A DNA stretch of 64,000 nucleotides from Gluconobacter cerinus (lineage in GTDB: Bacteria > Pseudomonadota > Alphaproteobacteria > Acetobacterales > Acetobacteraceae), in assembly GCF_002723935.1 (NCBI RefSeq), contig NZ_BEWM01000003.1, positions 434,001 through 498,000 of the forward strand, read 5' to 3'. The notes beneath the pieces are model-generated. The model was not told the DNA's origin. It saw nothing but the letters and a program-made list of their open reading frames with translations, and searched no databases. The translations under genes and the position numbers were made by a program. Of the stretch, positions 7,427 through 63,537 are shown in pieces; position 1 is the first letter of the stretch, and each line of letters begins with the position of its first letter.

Positions 7427-7708
7427 TCAGTAGGATTTGAGACGGAAACCGGAACCCACTGGCTCCATGACGTCGCACTGGACCAACTCACTGACAGCGG
7501 ATCGGACGACATCGGTATCTGTGGCCAGATAGCGGGCATAATCCTCGACAGAGACGCCCGTGCGGCCAGGTGCTCGAACAGCAGGGACAACATCCCCGAC
7601 ATCCGTACTACCAAGCCACAGGGCGCGCGCCGCCAGCGACAGAAGCGGCCAGCGACGATCGGACATCACCGACCGCGCATGCTTGCCGGGACGCTGGCGA
7701 CTGCTCAT
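7427..7708 (-). CDS. Small phage protein, possibly winged-helix
   Basis: A 93-residue basic protein. It starts at an ATG sharing one base with the DnaB stop codon (TGATG), so it is probably translated with the helicase. The second half (SVEDYARYLATDTDVVRSAVSELVQCDVMEPVGSGFRL) has the helix-helix-strand pattern of a winged helix, like small replication accessory proteins, but I do not recognise the family. Confidence 0.55.
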   Translation of the reverse strand: MSSRQRPGKHARSVMSDRRWPLLSLAARALWLGSTDVGDVVPAVRAPGRTGVSVEDYARYLATDTDVVRSAVSELVQCDVMEPVGSGFRLKSY

Positions 7709-9252
7709 CAGGCGCTTGCCAGTTCACGGCCCCATGCGGGGCTGCGCGGATCTTCACTTTCGTCACGGAACCAGGTGGTCTCATCATCGAACAGCATCCG
7801 GCAACGGCCCTCCGGGCCATGACGGTTCTTGACGATATGCACGTCACCCCTGCCCCGCGCCTTGTCCAGGCGATCATTGAACTCCTGACAGCGCAGACTG
7901 AACTGCTCAGGACTTTCACGATCACGCCGTGTCAGCTCACCGGATGACGCCTCTTTCTTGAGATAATAGTGCTCACGATGAATAAGGCCGATGACGTCCG
8001 CGTCCTGTTCCAGAGCGCCGGTATCCCGAAGATCCTGCATCTGCGGACGCTTGTTTTCGCGCTTCTCTGATTCACGGTTGAGCTGCGCCAGGACAATGAC
8101 CGGCACATCCAGTTCCTTCGCCAGAACCTTCAGTTCATTGCTGATTTCGGTCATTTCCTCATATCGCAGGCGACCACGCACACGAGGCGATCCGCGCATC
8201 AGCTGGACGTAATCCAGCACGATGGCATCGAGACCCTTCTTGGAGCGCTTCATGCGCCGCGCGCGCGACCGCAACATCGCAACCGACAAGCCGCCGCGCG
8301 TGTCTGTTTCCAGAGCCAGATGATAGGCCGCGTCACAGGCACGATTGAGCGCGGCCCACTGCCAGTCTTCCAGCGGTGGCTGCTCGCCCGTCATGGCTTC
8401 TTCAGGAACATCCCAACGACGCCCTGAAAAGACCGATCGCAGGTTCAACCCACTCTTGGCCGCACCACCGCGCGCGCCGAGCTGGTCAGCCGTCATCTCA
8501 CCCGACCAGAACAGGACGCGGGCACCGTTGGACGCGATCCGGAGCCCGATGCCCAACCCCAGAGAGGTCTTGCCCATGGCAGGCCGCGCGCCGAGGACGT
8601 ACATATTCCCGCCGACAAGACCGTTCGTCAGACGATCAAGCGACTTGTATCCCCAAGACAGACCCGCAAGCGCAGATCCACGCGCAACAGCTTCTTTTGC
8701 TTTCGTAACAGCCGTGCAAAGGGCCTCATGAAAGGTGACGTTCGGTTGGGTTTCCGTATTGCCAGAAGCCAGATGCATCAGGGCCGCTTCATGCCCTTCA
8801 AGAATCTCTTCTGCCTTCTGGTCTTCCGGCTTGCAGCACGCATCAGATGTCTGCTGACAAAGCGCCATCAGGTCACGGCGCATCGCCGTTTCCCGGATTT
8901 CCCGCGCGTAGTCATAGGCAAGCCGGTCACTGACGTAAGCGGCGGCCAGCTTGCTAATATAAACCTTGGGATCGACCTCGCCCCAGAGATCCAGATCAGG
9001 GTGCTCGAAATGACGGATGATTGTGAAGGGATCGACAGTTCGCCCTTCATTGTAAATCATCAGGGCCTTTTCATAGATCACACCATTCAGACGATCATAG
9101 AAATGCTCTGGCCGCAGAATTTCCTCCACGGCTTCCATGGTCTTCTTGGACTGCATGAGGACAGAGCCAAGAAGCGCACATTCACAGGACGTGTTGTTCG
9201 GAACTGACCGCATGGCCCCGCCGAACAGACCGGGATTAAAGTCACCACTCAT
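7708..9252 (-). CDS. Prophage replicative DNA helicase, DnaB family
   Basis: A 514-residue hexameric helicase. The N-terminal helical domain (SCECALLGSVLMQ, residues about 22-120) binds primase or loader. The RecA-like C-terminal domain has Walker A GARPAMGKTSLG (near residue 222) and Walker B DAIVLDYVQLM, then VLAQLNRESEKRENKRPQMQDL, which contains the DnaB H4-type motif. The start ATG overlaps the previous stop by four bases. Carrying its own helicase points to a phage that builds its own replisome at its own origin. Confidence 0.93.
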   Translation of the reverse strand: MSGDFNPGLFGGAMRSVPNNTSCECALLGSVLMQSKKTMEAVEEILRPEHFYDRLNGVIYEKALMIYNEGRTVDPFTIIRHFEHPDLDLWGEVDPKVYISKLAAAYVSDRLAYDYAREIRETAMRRDLMALCQQTSDACCKPEDQKAEEILEGHEAALMHLASGNTETQPNVTFHEALCTAVTKAKEAVARGSALAGLSWGYKSLDRLTNGLVGGNMYVLGARPAMGKTSLGLGIGLRIASNGARVLFWSGEMTADQLGARGGAAKSGLNLRSVFSGRRWDVPEEAMTGEQPPLEDWQWAALNRACDAAYHLALETDTRGGLSVAMLRSRARRMKRSKKGLDAIVLDYVQLMRGSPRVRGRLRYEEMTEISNELKVLAKELDVPVIVLAQLNRESEKRENKRPQMQDLRDTGALEQDADVIGLIHREHYYLKKEASSGELTRRDRESPEQFSLRCQEFNDRLDKARGRGDVHIVKNRHGPEGRCRMLFDDETTWFRDESEDPRSPAWGRELASA

Positions 9253-10630: not shown

Positions 10631-10783
10631 GGCGCCACCACTTGCCTTGGGTGAAATACCCAAGCCCGCGGATGTAATACCCGACACCTCGGACTCTCCC
10701 TTCCCGTATGACTGTCCTTGCGAGGGGACATCTTGGAATTGAGGAGAGGACCGAATGATGAAGGACAGGAGCGCGGGCGATCA
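10631..10783. other. Short gap after Cro-like gene
   Basis: No supported gene. The start of the next leftward gene lies at 10630 and the Cro-like stop at 10784. A GGGTATTTCACCC dyad near 10650-10662 is the only feature noticed; it could be part of a leader structure. No T-run terminator is present, so the leftward operon probably reads through. Confidence 0.3.
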
Positions 10784-11002
10784 TCACGCAGCGCGCTCCG
10801 CTTTTTCCGCTAACGTCAGCGGCTCAGGGCCGAAGACGTCTGGACGGATGATATGAACGGAAACGCCGGAAAGCTCGGAAATAACCCGGGCATGACATGG
10901 CGGGATCTTATCCCAGCCACAGACTGTCGAATGATGGCGGTGAATCACTTGGCTTACGCGAAGTGGCCCCCCAGCCTTTCGAATGATCTCTTTCGTGTTC
11001 AT
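10784..11002 (-). CDS. Cro/YdaS-like phage regulator
   Basis: A 72-residue protein. GGPLRVSQVIHRHHSTVCGWDKIPP is a helix-turn-helix and the segment HIIRPDVFGPEP matches the conserved end of YdaS/Cro-type regulators. It is the first gene of the leftward operon and is divergent from the CI-like repressor, the usual place of Cro. The ATG at 11002 is preferred over an upstream frame that would run through operator 11012-11026. It has no ribosome site, and a promoter at 11009-11038 would start transcription at or near this ATG, so translation may be leaderless. Confidence 0.8.
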   Translation of the reverse strand: MNTKEIIRKAGGPLRVSQVIHRHHSTVCGWDKIPPCHARVISELSGVSVHIIRPDVFGPEPLTLAEKAERAA

Positions 11003-11008
11003 AGCCAA

Positions 11009-11038
11009 TATGTGGGACATTCCCACCATTGGTGTCAA
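11009..11038 (-). promoter_or_regulatory. Leftward early promoter (PL-like)
   Basis: On the minus strand TTGACA (11033-11038) is a perfect -35. A weak -10 CACATA lies at 11009-11014 after 18 bases. Operator 11012-11026 fills the spacer, so repressor binding would block polymerase. The predicted start of RNA is about 11002, the A of the Cro-like ATG. Confidence 0.5.
11012..11026. promoter_or_regulatory. Repressor operator copy 1
   Basis: GTGGGACATTCCCAC: arms GTGGGA and TCCCAC around a three-base centre. It lies between the -35 and -10 of the leftward promoter, and the same pattern recurs at 11046, 11931 and 11966. Confidence 0.65.
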
Positions 11039-11045
11039 TCGAAAT

Positions 11046-11060
11046 GTGGGAAAATCCCGC
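11046..11060. promoter_or_regulatory. Repressor operator copy 2
   Basis: GTGGGAAAATCCCGC: one mismatch from the dyad. It lies 34 bases upstream of the repressor ATG, where binding could autoregulate the repressor gene. Confidence 0.55.
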
Positions 11061-11093
11061 CCTCGAAATCCTTTGTTCGGCCAAAATCCTTCT

Positions 11094-11435
11094 ATGAAAA
11101 CATCTAATCTGCAATCTCGATTGAGAACATTAAGAGAACAAAAAGGCTTGACGCAAGCTGCCGCTGCGGTGGAGATAGGGATATCGCGCGCCCATCTCAC
11201 AAAAATAGAGACTGGAGCTGATGCACCTGGGAGAGCAACGCTCGTGGCTATTGCCAACTATTTTGATGTCTCTTTGGACTGGCTAACAAGCGGCAACGGG
11301 AACATGAAGCCCGCCCGCGCACTCAATGCTGGTGAAGCCGCATTGTTAGATGCATATCGTCGCATGCCAGAGACTGAGGCAACTGCCTTTTTGCAGTACG
11401 CATTAATCAGAACTCAGGGAGCGAATGATGCCTAG
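11094..11435 (+). CDS. CI-like phage repressor (XRE family)
   Basis: A 113-residue protein. The N-terminal XRE domain is clear (SRLRTLREQKGLTQAAAAVE, then ISRAHLTKIETGADAP and IANYFDVSLDWL). The short C-terminal part (LLDAYRRMPETEATAFLQYAL) is helical and probably for dimerisation; there is no LexA-type autoprotease domain, so induction would not be by simple RecA-stimulated self-cleavage. The ATG at 11094 avoids a longer frame that would cross operator copies 1 and 2. It is convergent with the secreted protein gene, and their stop codons overlap within CTAG. Confidence 0.85.
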   Translation: MKTSNLQSRLRTLREQKGLTQAAAAVEIGISRAHLTKIETGADAPGRATLVAIANYFDVSLDWLTSGNGNMKPARALNAGEAALLDAYRRMPETEATAFLQYALIRTQGANDA

Positions 11436-11863
11436 TATAACTCCTTATAATCAATTCCTACTACATACTTAGTAGCTCCATATATTGAGTATGCAGCACA
11501 ATGTATCTCTCGTTTTTGTATATCGGCTCTGCAATAACCATCTGTCACATCAAGTTCTCTATTATCTACCCATAAATGTATTGCTTTCCCCTGTCCGTCT
11601 TTATCCGGAAGGTAGGTAAATCCATATATTCCGCTACTTCCTGAAAATTGGACCATCGTACGCCCACCCGAGAAATCTTTCAGAATCGCACTGTCGCAGC
11701 GAATGGGGACAGCCGTTCTCGCTAGATCGTCTTCCACGCCGCCATGTGCATAATTGGATCCTTTGAGACACGATCCATTCGACGTGATTATTCCCCCAGC
11801 GTGAGCTAAGGGGCTCAGCATCAGCATGATATCGATGCTCAGTAGAAAACTAAGTCCGCGCAT
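11432..11863 (-). CDS. Secreted prophage protein of unknown function (moron candidate)
   Basis: A 143-residue protein with a signal peptide (hydrophobic SFLLSIDIMLMLSPLAHA, likely cleavage after AHA). The mature part has five Cys and reads as beta-rich (TMVQFSGSSGIYGFTYL). The ATG at 11863 has an AAGGA site. It sits in the immunity region convergent to the repressor, and is visibly more A/T-rich than the other phage genes. A separately acquired gene expressed in the lysogen is likely; a role such as blocking superinfection or altering the host surface is only an inference. No family recognised. Confidence 0.7.
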   Translation of the reverse strand: MRGLSFLLSIDIMLMLSPLAHAGGIITSNGSCLKGSNYAHGGVEDDLARTAVPIRCDSAILKDFSGGRTMVQFSGSSGIYGFTYLPDKDGQGKAIHLWVDNRELDVTDGYCRADIQKREIHCAAYSIYGATKYVVGIDYKELY

Positions 11864-11930
11864 AAATCCTTCCCTTTCGCAAACATGACGAAGTGCGAGA
11901 AAGGATTTCGCAACTATCAAAAATATTACT

Positions 11931-11945
11931 GTGGGGAATGCCCAC
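11931..11945. promoter_or_regulatory. Repressor operator copy 3
   Basis: GTGGGGAATGCCCAC shares GTGGG-N5-CCCAC with the other copies. It lies upstream of the secreted-protein gene and upstream of the rightward promoter. A possible leftward -10 (TAATAT on the minus strand) lies next to it. Confidence 0.55.
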
Positions 11946-11954
11946 AAAATTATC

Positions 11955-11983
11955 TTGACTTCATTGTGGGACAATCCCACATT
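11955..11983 (+). promoter_or_regulatory. Rightward early promoter (PR-like)
   Basis: TTGACT (11955-11960) and a weak CACATT (11978-11983) are separated by 17 bases. Operator copy 4 lies in the spacer, mirroring the leftward promoter, where TTGACA, operator and CACATA are arranged in the same way. It would drive the chain of genes from 12016 to the integrase. Confidence 0.5.
11966..11980. promoter_or_regulatory. Repressor operator copy 4
   Basis: GTGGGACAATCCCAC, flanked by T and A so that the dyad has perfect seven-base arms (11965-11981). It is the best match among the four copies. Confidence 0.65.
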
Positions 11984-12010
11984 CTCTCCATCGCCACCCG
12001 CGATGGAGAG
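11984..12010. repeat. Perfect 10-bp inverted repeat covering the ribosome site of the first rightward gene
   Basis: CTCTCCATCG and CGATGGAGAG form a perfect stem around a seven-base loop. The right arm contains GGAGAG, the ribosome site five bases before the ATG at 12016. In any RNA that begins upstream of 11984 the site would be hidden. It may instead be a DNA-level operator for a second regulator. Confidence 0.5.
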
Positions 12011-12015
12011 ATTTC

Positions 12016-12309
12016 ATGTCGTTCGGATATACGCCCGAGCAGATCCGACTGCTCATTGGTCCTGAAACCCGTTTTGTTAAGGCTTATGACGCAGCGCTTT
12101 GGCATGTGACGCATGCTCCAGTGGCTTGTGCGCTTGCTAATCAGCTCGCGAACAAGAACGAGGCCATTGCTGCCCTTCTCGATGTCACCAGATCGCGTCA
12201 CACGCGCTTTGAATGGCAGATGCGCGCTGAGCTGCACCGCGTTATCGCCACAGCTTTCCGCTGCAAATCCCCGAAATTCCAGATCGCATACGAGGGAGCC
12301 GCAGCATGA
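12016..12309 (+). CDS. Hypothetical early phage protein
   Basis: A 97-residue protein, first gene of the rightward operon, with a GGAGAG ribosome site. It is mainly helical (CALANQLANKNEAIAALLDV, RAELHRVIATAF). No family recognised. It overlaps the next gene by four bases. Its first position behind a repressor-controlled promoter suggests a very early role after infection or induction. Confidence 0.6.
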   Translation: MSFGYTPEQIRLLIGPETRFVKAYDAALWHVTHAPVACALANQLANKNEAIAALLDVTRSRHTRFEWQMRAELHRVIATAFRCKSPKFQIAYEGAAA

Positions 12310-12725
12310 AGCGCCCCCTACCCCCAATGCTGATCTTCACGCGCACCCAGAGAGCGTTTGACCACTTCCTGTCTGAGAACATTGAGCCGGAAGCTCACAA
12401 TCAGGCCCGGGATATCCAGATCCGCCTTCAGCATTGCCGCAACCTCGCTGCGAATGCCGAGCACGAGGGCGACAAGCGCATGGCCATGATCTGGGATGAA
12501 AGCGCATTCGGTCTTGAGGATCAGCTGCAACGCCTGCTGATGGCGAACCGGCTTCCGGAAGATGTCCCGGAAATTCCTGCGCCGCCCGCCCTCCGTCCGA
12601 TCGCTACGGAACTCTTCAGCCAGCCTGAAATCAATCGCGCCCAGACCCTGAGCGCCTGGTGCGCAAAGCAGGTGGAGCATCTCCGGGCAATTACCGTAGG
12701 CGCAGCCATAAGGAAGTACCCATGA
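12306..12725 (+). CDS. Hypothetical phage protein
   Basis: A 139-residue helical protein (IQIRLQHCRNLAANAEHEGD, FGLEDQLQRLLMANRLPEDV). No family recognised. ATGA overlaps join it to both neighbours, so it is translated as part of the rightward chain. Confidence 0.6.
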   Translation: MKRPLPPMLIFTRTQRAFDHFLSENIEPEAHNQARDIQIRLQHCRNLAANAEHEGDKRMAMIWDESAFGLEDQLQRLLMANRLPEDVPEIPAPPALRPIATELFSQPEINRAQTLSAWCAKQVEHLRAITVGAAIRKYP

Positions 12726-16946: not shown

Positions 16947-17323
16947 GTGATATCTCCTATCCATTGACGAGTGTATTTACCGTAAATGACGTGTTGTCTC
17001 ACCTGAAAGGGCGCATCGGACGCAGGAAGCTCATGGATCACCTGCGCGCCACCCCATCTTTCCAGGGCGGACCAACCCATCTGCGATGGCCAAACAGGAT
17101 CGTGTTTCGTCCCGCTGATTATGAACGTCTTTTGCTGAGCCTCGAATGTCCCTCAAAATCGTCAACCGCCATGGAACGCACCGCCTCTACATCCGCGGCA
17201 CCGTCAGCGGACAAAGCATTAGCGAAAGCACGGGAACTTCTGACCCAGTCCGGGCGGAAGAATACCGCGCCAAAAGGGAAGCCGAGCTCTGGAAAGAGGC
17301 AGTCTATGGCAAGCGCGCTGTAG
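16943..17323 (+). CDS. Excisionase-like winged-helix protein
   Basis: A 126-residue protein. Residues 12-65 (FTVNDVLSHLKGRIGRRKLM, then THLRWPNRIVFRPADYERLL) read as the MerR/Xis-type winged helix used by recombination directionality factors. The C-terminal half is a basic Ser/Lys-rich tail. The gene lies directly before the integrase gene and overlaps it by 178 bases in another frame, which is unusual. The position and fold fit the protein that steers integrase toward excision. Confidence 0.65.
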   Translation: MSDISYPLTSVFTVNDVLSHLKGRIGRRKLMDHLRATPSFQGGPTHLRWPNRIVFRPADYERLLLSLECPSKSSTAMERTASTSAAPSADKALAKARELLTQSGRKNTAPKGKPSSGKRQSMASAL

Positions 17324-18240
17324 TCACATTTGCCCACGCTGTAGGCGCCTATCTTGAAGACTGCGAAAGATCCGAGACCACGAAATTTCATCTAAGGCGT
17401 CTTCTGGATCACTTCGGGACAACCCGTTTGATGGAGATCGCGCAACCCCAGGTCGATGAGGCCTACAAAGCTATTTTGCGAGATGGAGCCCAGGCTTCCC
17501 CCGCGACAAAAATGCGAGGAGTTTTGACTCCACTCAGGGCAATCATGGAGTTTGCAGCAATTCGCCAATGGTGCGAGAGACCCGCTTTTTCAACGCCAAA
17601 AATTCCCAAGCGCAGGACGAACTACTTACAGCCCGATGAAGTAGATCGGCTGATCAGTAGCGCCGCCCCTCACCTACGCCCGCTGATTATCTTCCTGGTC
17701 GGAACAGGCGCAAGACTATCCGAGGCCCTGGAACTCGAGTGGAAAGACGTCGACATCCGAGGGAAGCGCGCCGTTGTCTGGCAGAAGCAAGGCAACGAGC
17801 GCCGTATAGACCTGCCCCCTAGAGTGATTCGAGCGCTCCTCACCTTGGGATACCGCGACGGTCCAGTCTTCCGTCCAAGGATCAGGCGGCCTGATGCTCT
17901 TGGCGTGATCAACGACGGATATGCCAGTAAAGGACGCCTATCAGGCGGCCAGATCAAAAGTGCATGGGCCTCAGCTTGCAGAAAAGCGACGCTTCCCGGC
18001 CGGATTCGGGTTTGGACACCAATCGGCAGCAATACCCAGAAAAGCGCCTTTGTCCCCGAAATCACTCCTCATGATCTGAGACATACATGGGCAACCTGGC
18101 ACTATTGTCTCCATCGAGACATCCTAAGACTGAAAGAAGATGGAGGCTGGGCAACAATTTCGATTGTCACGCGCTACGCAAAAAAGATGCCAGATGAGTA
18201 CAGAAAAGATGTGGAAAACTGGCTTTCTCAGGCTGATTGA
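17146..18240 (+). CDS. int: Prophage tyrosine integrase
   Basis: A 364-residue site-specific recombinase. The N-terminal arm-binding and SAM-like core-binding domains span about 1-165. The catalytic domain shows GTGARLSEALEL (first Arg), the box HDLRHTWATWH (His-x-x-Arg and the later His), and GGWATISIVTRYAK with the nucleophilic Tyr. The start ATG at 17146 lies inside the excisionase-like gene. The gene points toward the 3' end of tRNA-Val 150 bases away, the normal geometry for a tRNA-integrating phage. Confidence 0.93.
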   Translation: MSLKIVNRHGTHRLYIRGTVSGQSISESTGTSDPVRAEEYRAKREAELWKEAVYGKRAVVTFAHAVGAYLEDCERSETTKFHLRRLLDHFGTTRLMEIAQPQVDEAYKAILRDGAQASPATKMRGVLTPLRAIMEFAAIRQWCERPAFSTPKIPKRRTNYLQPDEVDRLISSAAPHLRPLIIFLVGTGARLSEALELEWKDVDIRGKRAVVWQKQGNERRIDLPPRVIRALLTLGYRDGPVFRPRIRRPDALGVINDGYASKGRLSGGQIKSAWASACRKATLPGRIRVWTPIGSNTQKSAFVPEITPHDLRHTWATWHYCLHRDILRLKEDGGWATISIVTRYAKKMPDEYRKDVENWLSQAD

Positions 18241-18241
18241 G

Positions 18242-18279
18242 CGTACAGAACAAAGTCAGAACAAACTGTACGGATTTTT
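18242..18279 (+). terminator. Possible terminator after integrase
   Basis: CGTACAG (18242-18248) pairs with CTGTACG (18266-18272), followed by GATTTTTG. The loop is 17 bases, so the hairpin is weak. Two copies of CAGAACAAA (18246-18254, 18257-18265) lie in the loop region and could be integrase arm sites instead. Confidence 0.35.
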
Positions 18280-63504: not shown

Positions 63505-63533
63505 GCAGGTGGACGAACGGGAACCTATAAGGA
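63505..63533 (+). promoter_or_regulatory. lexA promoter
   Basis: TTGCAG (63505-63510) and TATAAG (63528-63533) are separated by exactly 17 bases. The -10 lies within the SOS box, so LexA would block its own promoter. The predicted RNA start is about 63540, 73 bases before the ATG. Confidence 0.65.
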
Positions 63534-63537
63534 ACAA
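63523..63537. promoter_or_regulatory. SOS box (LexA operator), alphaproteobacterial type
   Basis: GAAC-CTATAAG-GAAC, which is GTTC-N7-GTTC on the other strand, the known LexA site of Alphaproteobacteria. A further GAAC stands at 63517-63520. The box overlaps the -10 of the lexA promoter. Confidence 0.8.

Follow-up and report, generated by a model that had tools for sequence, protein, structure and literature searches.

The stretch of DNA analysed here (the window, 64 kb in length) contains one end of a prophage, in which two arms of genes diverge from an immunity region at ~10.8–12.0 kb. The features considered are as follows, in window coordinates:

7708–9252, minus strand: DnaB-like replicative helicase of the left arm (PHROG match)
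10784–11002, minus strand: Cro-like protein, 72 amino acids (phrog_8008, E 8.3e-5; phrog_409, E 8e-4)
11009–11038, minus strand: leftward promoter, TTGACA at 11038–11033 and CACATA at 11014–11009, read from the sequence, with conserved geometry
11012–11026, no strand: operator site 1, exact GTGGG-N5-CCCAC, on the -10 region of the leftward promoter
11046–11060, no strand: operator site 2, with a single mismatch in its CCCGC half and its centre at -41 relative to the cI ATG
11082–11087, plus strand: candidate -10 of the repressor promoter, CAAAAT, lacking a -35
11094–11435, plus strand: cI, CI-like HTH repressor, 113 amino acids, lacking a peptidase domain (Pfam HTH_3, E 8.9e-17)
11125–11139, no strand: LexA-type box GAACATTAAGAGAAC inside the cI coding sequence, recognised from sequence only
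11432–11863, minus strand: cargo gene (open reading frame), 143-amino acid protein with a signal-peptide-like start, convergent with cI
11931–11945, no strand: operator site 3, exact, the inner right site
11955–11983, plus strand: rightward promoter, TTGACT at 11955–11960 and CACATT at 11978–11983, read from the sequence, with conserved geometry
11966–11980, no strand: operator site 4, exact, on the -10 region of the rightward promoter
11983–12011, plus strand: hairpin directly past the right promoter, with a Shine-Dalgarno-like GGAG in its 3' arm (sequence and comparison)
12016–12309, plus strand: first right-arm gene, 97 amino acids (open reading frame)
17146–18240, plus strand: tyrosine integrase at the end of the right arm (Pfam and PHROG matches)

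A C-terminal peptidase domain is absent from the 113-amino acid repressor, for which only HTH families passed the Pfam cut-offs; the Lambda CI family of self-cleaving repressors is defined by a peptidase S24 domain. The Cro-like protein resembles known Cro families weakly, with Pfam P22_Cro giving just E 0.08, and its gene is of Cro type in being divergent from cI and in having its promoter covered by an operator. It stands at the head of the left arm and is followed by the DnaB-like helicase, terminase and portal genes, while the right arm consists of small genes and then the integrase, which lies close to a tRNA-Val gene. Of the right-arm small genes searched against Pfam and PHROG, two gave no family match. 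No family in either was matched by the 129-amino acid open reading frame preceding int, the putative xis.

Two divergent operator/promoter sets flank the repressor gene, and relatives have the same layout. A preliminary description of this DNA had placed the pattern GTGGG-N5-CCCAC at four positions, which is exact at 11012, 11931 and 11966, while the sequence at 11046 is GTGGGAAAATCCCGC, with one mismatch; the CCCGC half of this site 2 was found again at the same place in nine of 14 GTGGG-type loci, read by eye. The arrangement proposed for the outer promoters was as described, with TTGACA followed after six bases by site 1 and TTGACT followed after five bases by site 4. Each -10 candidate (CACATA and CACATT) is in part made up by the far arm of the operator, and scoring as E. 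coli-type promoters gave a modest 5.6 for the left and 8.1 for the right. Transcript starts are predicted at the cro ATG (11002) for the leftward promoter and at ~11990 for the rightward one. Our literature search returned no description of these operators among the matches listed.

We examined how widely this region is shared by searching with the repressor, which was matched in 56 of 299 family genomes at E 1e-8, and in 4 of 26 genus and 17 of 395 order genomes at E 1e-15 (this genome counted in each). Viral contigs gave two relatives of 76% and 75% identity, those in phage and plasmid records were all below 60%, and a nucleotide search of phage records with positions 10700–12400 gave no match. 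Repressor relatives appear here in one bacterial family and in viral contigs, with operator letters that vary by lineage. They often keep the same layout, in which a Cro-like gene and two sites precede the repressor, and two more sites and the right arm follow it, with or without a gene for an exported protein directly after the repressor. GTGGG-type operators with two sites per side, 33–36 bp apart, were present in loci L071, L091, L103, L104, L109, L122, L124, L153, L026 and L031, the last two having an additional third left site 24 bp beyond. In L142 and L144 the outer sites are intact and the inner sites partly decayed, and much of the layout is retained with other operator letters in L018, L020–L024, L030, L032 and others. 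When two operators were required to be spaced by exactly 20 bases, with no more than one mismatch allowed, one of 299 family genomes had such a pair, namely this one, although the fixed spacing overlooks pairs 19 apart that are present in relatives. We also used a detector consisting of a TTGAC-like hexamer, 4–7 bases and the palindrome GTnnn-N5-nnnAC, which is blind to operator bases 3–5. It found a promoter/operator unit beside the repressor in 39 of 54 related loci, and on both sides in 20, with no hit in 15, including all seven distant viral loci; a 55th locus, L046, was left out of this count because its repressor was not matched by that method. Over 471,508 strand-bases from eleven source sequences it gave 22 hits, 17 of which were counted as expected ones.

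A hairpin follows right after the promoter in 25 of 28 right-hand leaders (only 5 bp in L026 and L031), the exceptions being L019 and L030, which have none, and L157, which has an unrelated one. We aligned 21 of the 25 leaders, dropping the near-duplicates L031, L144, L151 and L158, and 84.6% of cells pair, compared with 32–55% when the alignment is slid. One pair is GC in nine leaders and AU in eight, and the covariation score was above that of all 500 shuffles; pairs changed on both sides were not clearly above shuffles (41/500), and further pair types were not above them (390/500 as high). As the predicted transcript start lies inside the 5' arm, the hairpin may form in the message, as a stem at its 5' end, or may be a palindrome in the DNA.

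The space following cI differs between loci. In 16 of the 30 examined there is an exported-type gene and at least 478 bp between cI and the right outer site; L156 has an exported-type gene with no right site found, L027 and L030 carry other genes, nine loci have at most 63 bp, L157 has 140 bp and L025 was left unassigned. Of the 16 cargo proteins that are intact, 15 carry a hydrophobic segment at the N terminus, and the cargo gene of L122 has an inner membrane segment. A simple signal rule was passed by 13 of 14 complete cargo ORFs (that of the window only via an upstream start), and 6 of 147 flanking ORFs pass a slightly looser rule. BLASTP placed the 16 intact proteins in 11 groups, and we predict that the slot holds unrelated exported proteins. 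The window protein (P0003) and ten others gave nothing above the Pfam cut-offs, P0003 and three others gave one weak match to PHROGs (L071, E 0.0016, a family of unknown function), and P0003 and six others gave none in PADLOC. Viral contigs contain no relative of P0003, and a search of 100 genomes gave, apart from its own, a single weak match (E 5.4e-4, 31%). Because the cargo gene overlaps or abuts cI in the same direction in several loci, its product is probably made in the lysogen there, while in the window, where the gene is convergent with cI and site 3 lies 2 bp from a TAATAT on the cargo strand, the repressor may control it. From the position of the slot and the predicted export signals our guess is that the cargo excludes other phages (superinfection exclusion). 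In L047 (L018), the exported cargo gene downstream of the repressor appears to be broken by an early stop or frameshift.

On the other side of cI, measured from the ATG, the best candidate for site 2 has its centre at -41 in the window and between -41 and -44 in 23 of 30 loci. For L026 and L031 the scan picked the third site, their 34-bp-spaced site being at ~-42, and the rule is broken in five loci (L019, L022, L025, L124 and L157). A site matching at least eight of ten bases at -41 to -44 was present in 19 of 30 loci, compared with 0.05 expected from shuffled leaders; cI start codons were chosen by us where several are possible (L104, L103). In the hexamer at -12 to -7, CAAAAT in the window, the second base is A in 21 of 30 loci and the sixth is T in 17. 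The cI transcript start is predicted at the ATG itself (11094), and cI looks leaderless. In lambda, the OR2-PRM arrangement has an operator at about -42 that activates a cI promoter without a good -35, and the spacing of site 2 matches this geometry.

Within the first codons of cI we found a second kind of motif. GAAC-N7-GAAC lies near the start of 15 of 30 repressor genes, compared with 2.3 expected from codon resampling, and does so in four codon arrangements; elsewhere in these loci there are 10 in 328 kb. It is the reverse of the alphaproteobacterial LexA box GTTC-N7-GTTC as given in excerpts of PMC3323433 and PMC12700426. The host lexA gene, at the right end of the window (start ~63613, to 64000), has the box GAACCTATAAGGAAC upstream at 63521–63535. 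The box at 11125–11139 is just downstream of the predicted cI start, so that LexA, if it binds there, would be expected to lower cI. A realistic alternative, which we think somewhat less likely than not, is that the box is a by-product of the conserved repressor residues RTLREQ and that the prophage has no direct SOS link here. In ten of the 15 genes the box does lie on these residues, where codon resampling alone yields it with a probability of ~0.19–0.22; it is absent from the other 15 genes and near the start in just one of 38 more distant loci (L038), no conserved leftward promoter overlaps it, and upstream of recA there is just a LexA variant spaced by 6 nt. Against this stand the excess over resampling and the low background, the same box type upstream of host lexA, and the other three codon arrangements, whose chance probabilities are low (L124, 0.028; L154, 0.025; L156, 0.017; L026, 0.06; L031, 0.055).

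Several further LexA-type motifs were observed. The window has five GAAC-N7-GAAC boxes against 2.4 expected, one of which, at 18248–18262, directly follows the integrase stop and may be due to chance. The sequence upstream of recA (L163) is GAACATTTGTGAAC, with LexA half-sites spaced by 6 bases and not 7. In L032 a box lies between cI and the cargo gene, and among the more distant loci that of L035 lies upstream (1 of 38). In L056 and L058 (L027, L030), a small convergent gene family downstream of the repressor has no export signal and a LexA-type box upstream, and is a candidate for an SOS-controlled antirepressor. A leftward SOS promoter at the cI box was not supported: in 14 of 15 loci, over 5% of the codon-resampled genes (29–281 of 300) equalled the best leftward promoter score; the window score was reached by 42 of 300 and that of L142 by 13 of 300.

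We assessed which protein reads the operators by comparing recognition helices with operator letters. The 39 detector loci were collapsed to 19 distinct repressor helices, and the statistics that follow handle kinship only by this collapsing of identical helices, with bases 1–2 fixed by the detector. The residue aligned with Gln33 of the 434 repressor tracks operator base 3: Lys goes with G in 9 of 9 helices and other residues with G in 0 of 10 (Fisher p 1.1e-5), and the mutual information has a permutation p of 5e-5. Asn and Gln go with T, Glu and Asp with C, Gly with A or T and Ala with A, while Thr is tied between T and C and base 3 is mixed in L041 and L043 (Gln). Likewise, the residue aligned with Ser30 tracks base 4 (p 6e-4), with p 0.09 and 0.12 for the crossed residue-base pairings. 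Both positions lie in the recognition helix of the 434 repressor (PDB 1per, 2or1), which matches the present protein in sequence at E 5e-5 and shares its HTH fold, although the operator here is 15 bp long and has other bases. Covariation of the operator letters with the recognition helix is evidence that the 113-amino acid repressor reads these sites, and the predicted assignment of repressor to operator thus has strong comparative support.

The Cro-like protein was treated in the same way. Of 40 loci tried, for six of which the site was entered by hand, 30 have the ATG of its ORF 8–11 nt past site 1. The other ten comprise seven loci with an AQW-group helix together with L018, L025 and L156, for which the string entered or the choice of the first ATG did not suit. 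Among the 30, the spacer measures 9 nt in 13, 8 or 10 in 15 and 11 in two, and none of the 30 contains GGAG, GAGG or AGGA. With the -10 formed by the operator arm, the A of the ATG would be +1 at a 9-nt spacer, and the simple reading is a leaderless cro message. Where the Cro-like helix carries His, base 4 is G in 18 of 19 loci, and where it carries another residue, base 4 is a letter other than G in 10 of 11, the exceptions being L023 and L039; counted by distinct helix and bases this is 11, 1, 1 and 7 (p 7.7e-4). Base 3 may be either G or T beside the helix RHHATVI, and the Cro-like proteins of L153 and L023 are 94% identical although their operators differ. It thus appears that both proteins read base 4, while base 3 is read by the repressor. 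These observations bear on the possibility that the main reader of the four sites is the Cro-like protein or a host regulator, with the 113-amino acid protein acting elsewhere. Covariation of base 4 with the Cro-like helix would suit such an arrangement, but base 3 tracks the repressor residue while one and the same Cro helix occurs with either letter, and the genome has no other exact copies of the motif, which argues against a global host regulator; we consider it improbable.

The exact motif has three matches in the 64-kb window, where the shuffle mean is 0.04 and none of 100 shuffles reached three. The whole genome (3,584,657 bases, 49 contigs) also has three exact copies, all of them here. 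A backward control pattern occurs four times in the genome, which indicates that the signal is the clustering and not the rarity of the motif. A functionless chance cluster of short inverted repeats would accord with a motif that is not rare by genome composition, but with shuffles never reaching three and with geometry and covariation recurring in relatives we regard this as exceedingly unlikely. The scan for further sites that had been suggested gave none that stands out in the window. Dispersed operator copies were tried and rejected, as allowing up to two mismatches gave 22 matches in the window against 32.6 expected from shuffles.

Taken together, we consider this locus to be a lambda-type two-sided immunity region in which the 113-amino acid repressor acts on four predicted sites, with a probability of about 0.85. 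A lambda-like switch had been proposed at the outset, and is supported by the short HTH repressor, the two mirror-image promoter/operator pairs, the Cro-like gene to the left and the integrase to the right. The repressor probably binds the four sites as a dimer. As sites 1 and 4 cover the -10 regions of mirror-image promoters, the left arm, with cro and the replication and packaging genes, would be shut together with the small genes and integrase of the right arm. Binding is probably cooperative with sites 2 and 3, which lie 34–35 bp further in. From site 2, at -41 and with a recurrent weakening mismatch, the repressor probably activates the promoter of its own gene, in the way that lambda CI acts from OR2 on PRM, and the Cro-like protein probably reads the same sites and so flips the switch. 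The logic was first described as simple; the graded sites, the probable self-activation site and the LexA-type box in cI make it less so.

The switch would be of an ordinary kind, one that comparison supports well, and it comes with a clear record of repressor, competitor Cro and operator apparently changing together while the distances stay nearly fixed. Should this be true, sequence would allow immunity specificity to be predicted, which is testable by single residue or base exchanges. A wider reading, to which we give slightly less than an even chance, is a heteroimmune prophage family on a fixed scaffold with a two-residue code, base 3 being read by the repressor alone and base 4 by repressor and Cro, so that a change of base 3 and the matching residue would give a new immunity type without a new Cro. 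A non-cleaving repressor would be tied to DNA damage by host LexA at a box in its own codons, and an interchangeable exported protein would travel in the cassette. The LexA-type box offers a testable prediction of the link between DNA damage and a phage whose repressor cannot be cleaved, and the uncharacterised exported phage proteins of the cargo slot are candidate exclusion factors.

The lambda immunity region has the order OL–rexAB–cI–OR, with three operator sites per side about 24 bp apart. As in lambda, one repressor lies between two outward-facing operator sets, a cro gene opens one arm and the integrase is in the other, an operator sits near -42 relative to a cI promoter that lacks a good -35, the sites are graded, and there is additional coding sequence between cI and the far operators. 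Unlike lambda, the repressor has no self-cleaving domain, there are two sites per side at 34–36 bp, the integrase and cro arms carry other genes, the Cro-like gene looks leaderless, a LexA-type box lies in cI, and exported cargo takes the place of rexAB. The CTXphi repressor is likewise short and non-cleavable. Precedent for a phage or element repressor gene under host LexA comes from CTXphi rstR and SXT setR, as described in excerpts of PMC3323433, PMC13250501 and PMC5963079, the last of which includes a drop of rstR RNA to 0.3 with mitomycin C. Here LexA binding is only predicted and, unlike in those systems as excerpted, the box lies within the first repressor codons and the prophage is that of a tailed phage. 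The host family here is probably Acetobacteraceae. According to PMC8566455, phiAP1, a temperate phage of acetic acid bacteria and probably of the same host family, resembles this prophage in its CI-like repressors and in having an integrase of the tyrosine family beside a tRNA gene; the word 'operator' does not occur in the main text of that paper.

Exact site pairs were also found in 74 viral stretches, eight of which have a repressor relative as well (L141 repeating L122). The other 66 are not relatives; in 63 of them every exact site has a different operator core, nCCCG or CGGGn, and the exceptions are L077, L079 and L081 (L081 in one of five sites). Sites with these cores (L087, L090, L138 and others among L068–L141) are often in tandem ~35 bp apart, mostly in low-GC sequence, and often adjoin T or A runs, so they are perhaps terminators. 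L072 has up to 11 of them, all exact, in 5.8 kb. Finally, a tandem pair of repressor-like genes was seen in L051 (L022).
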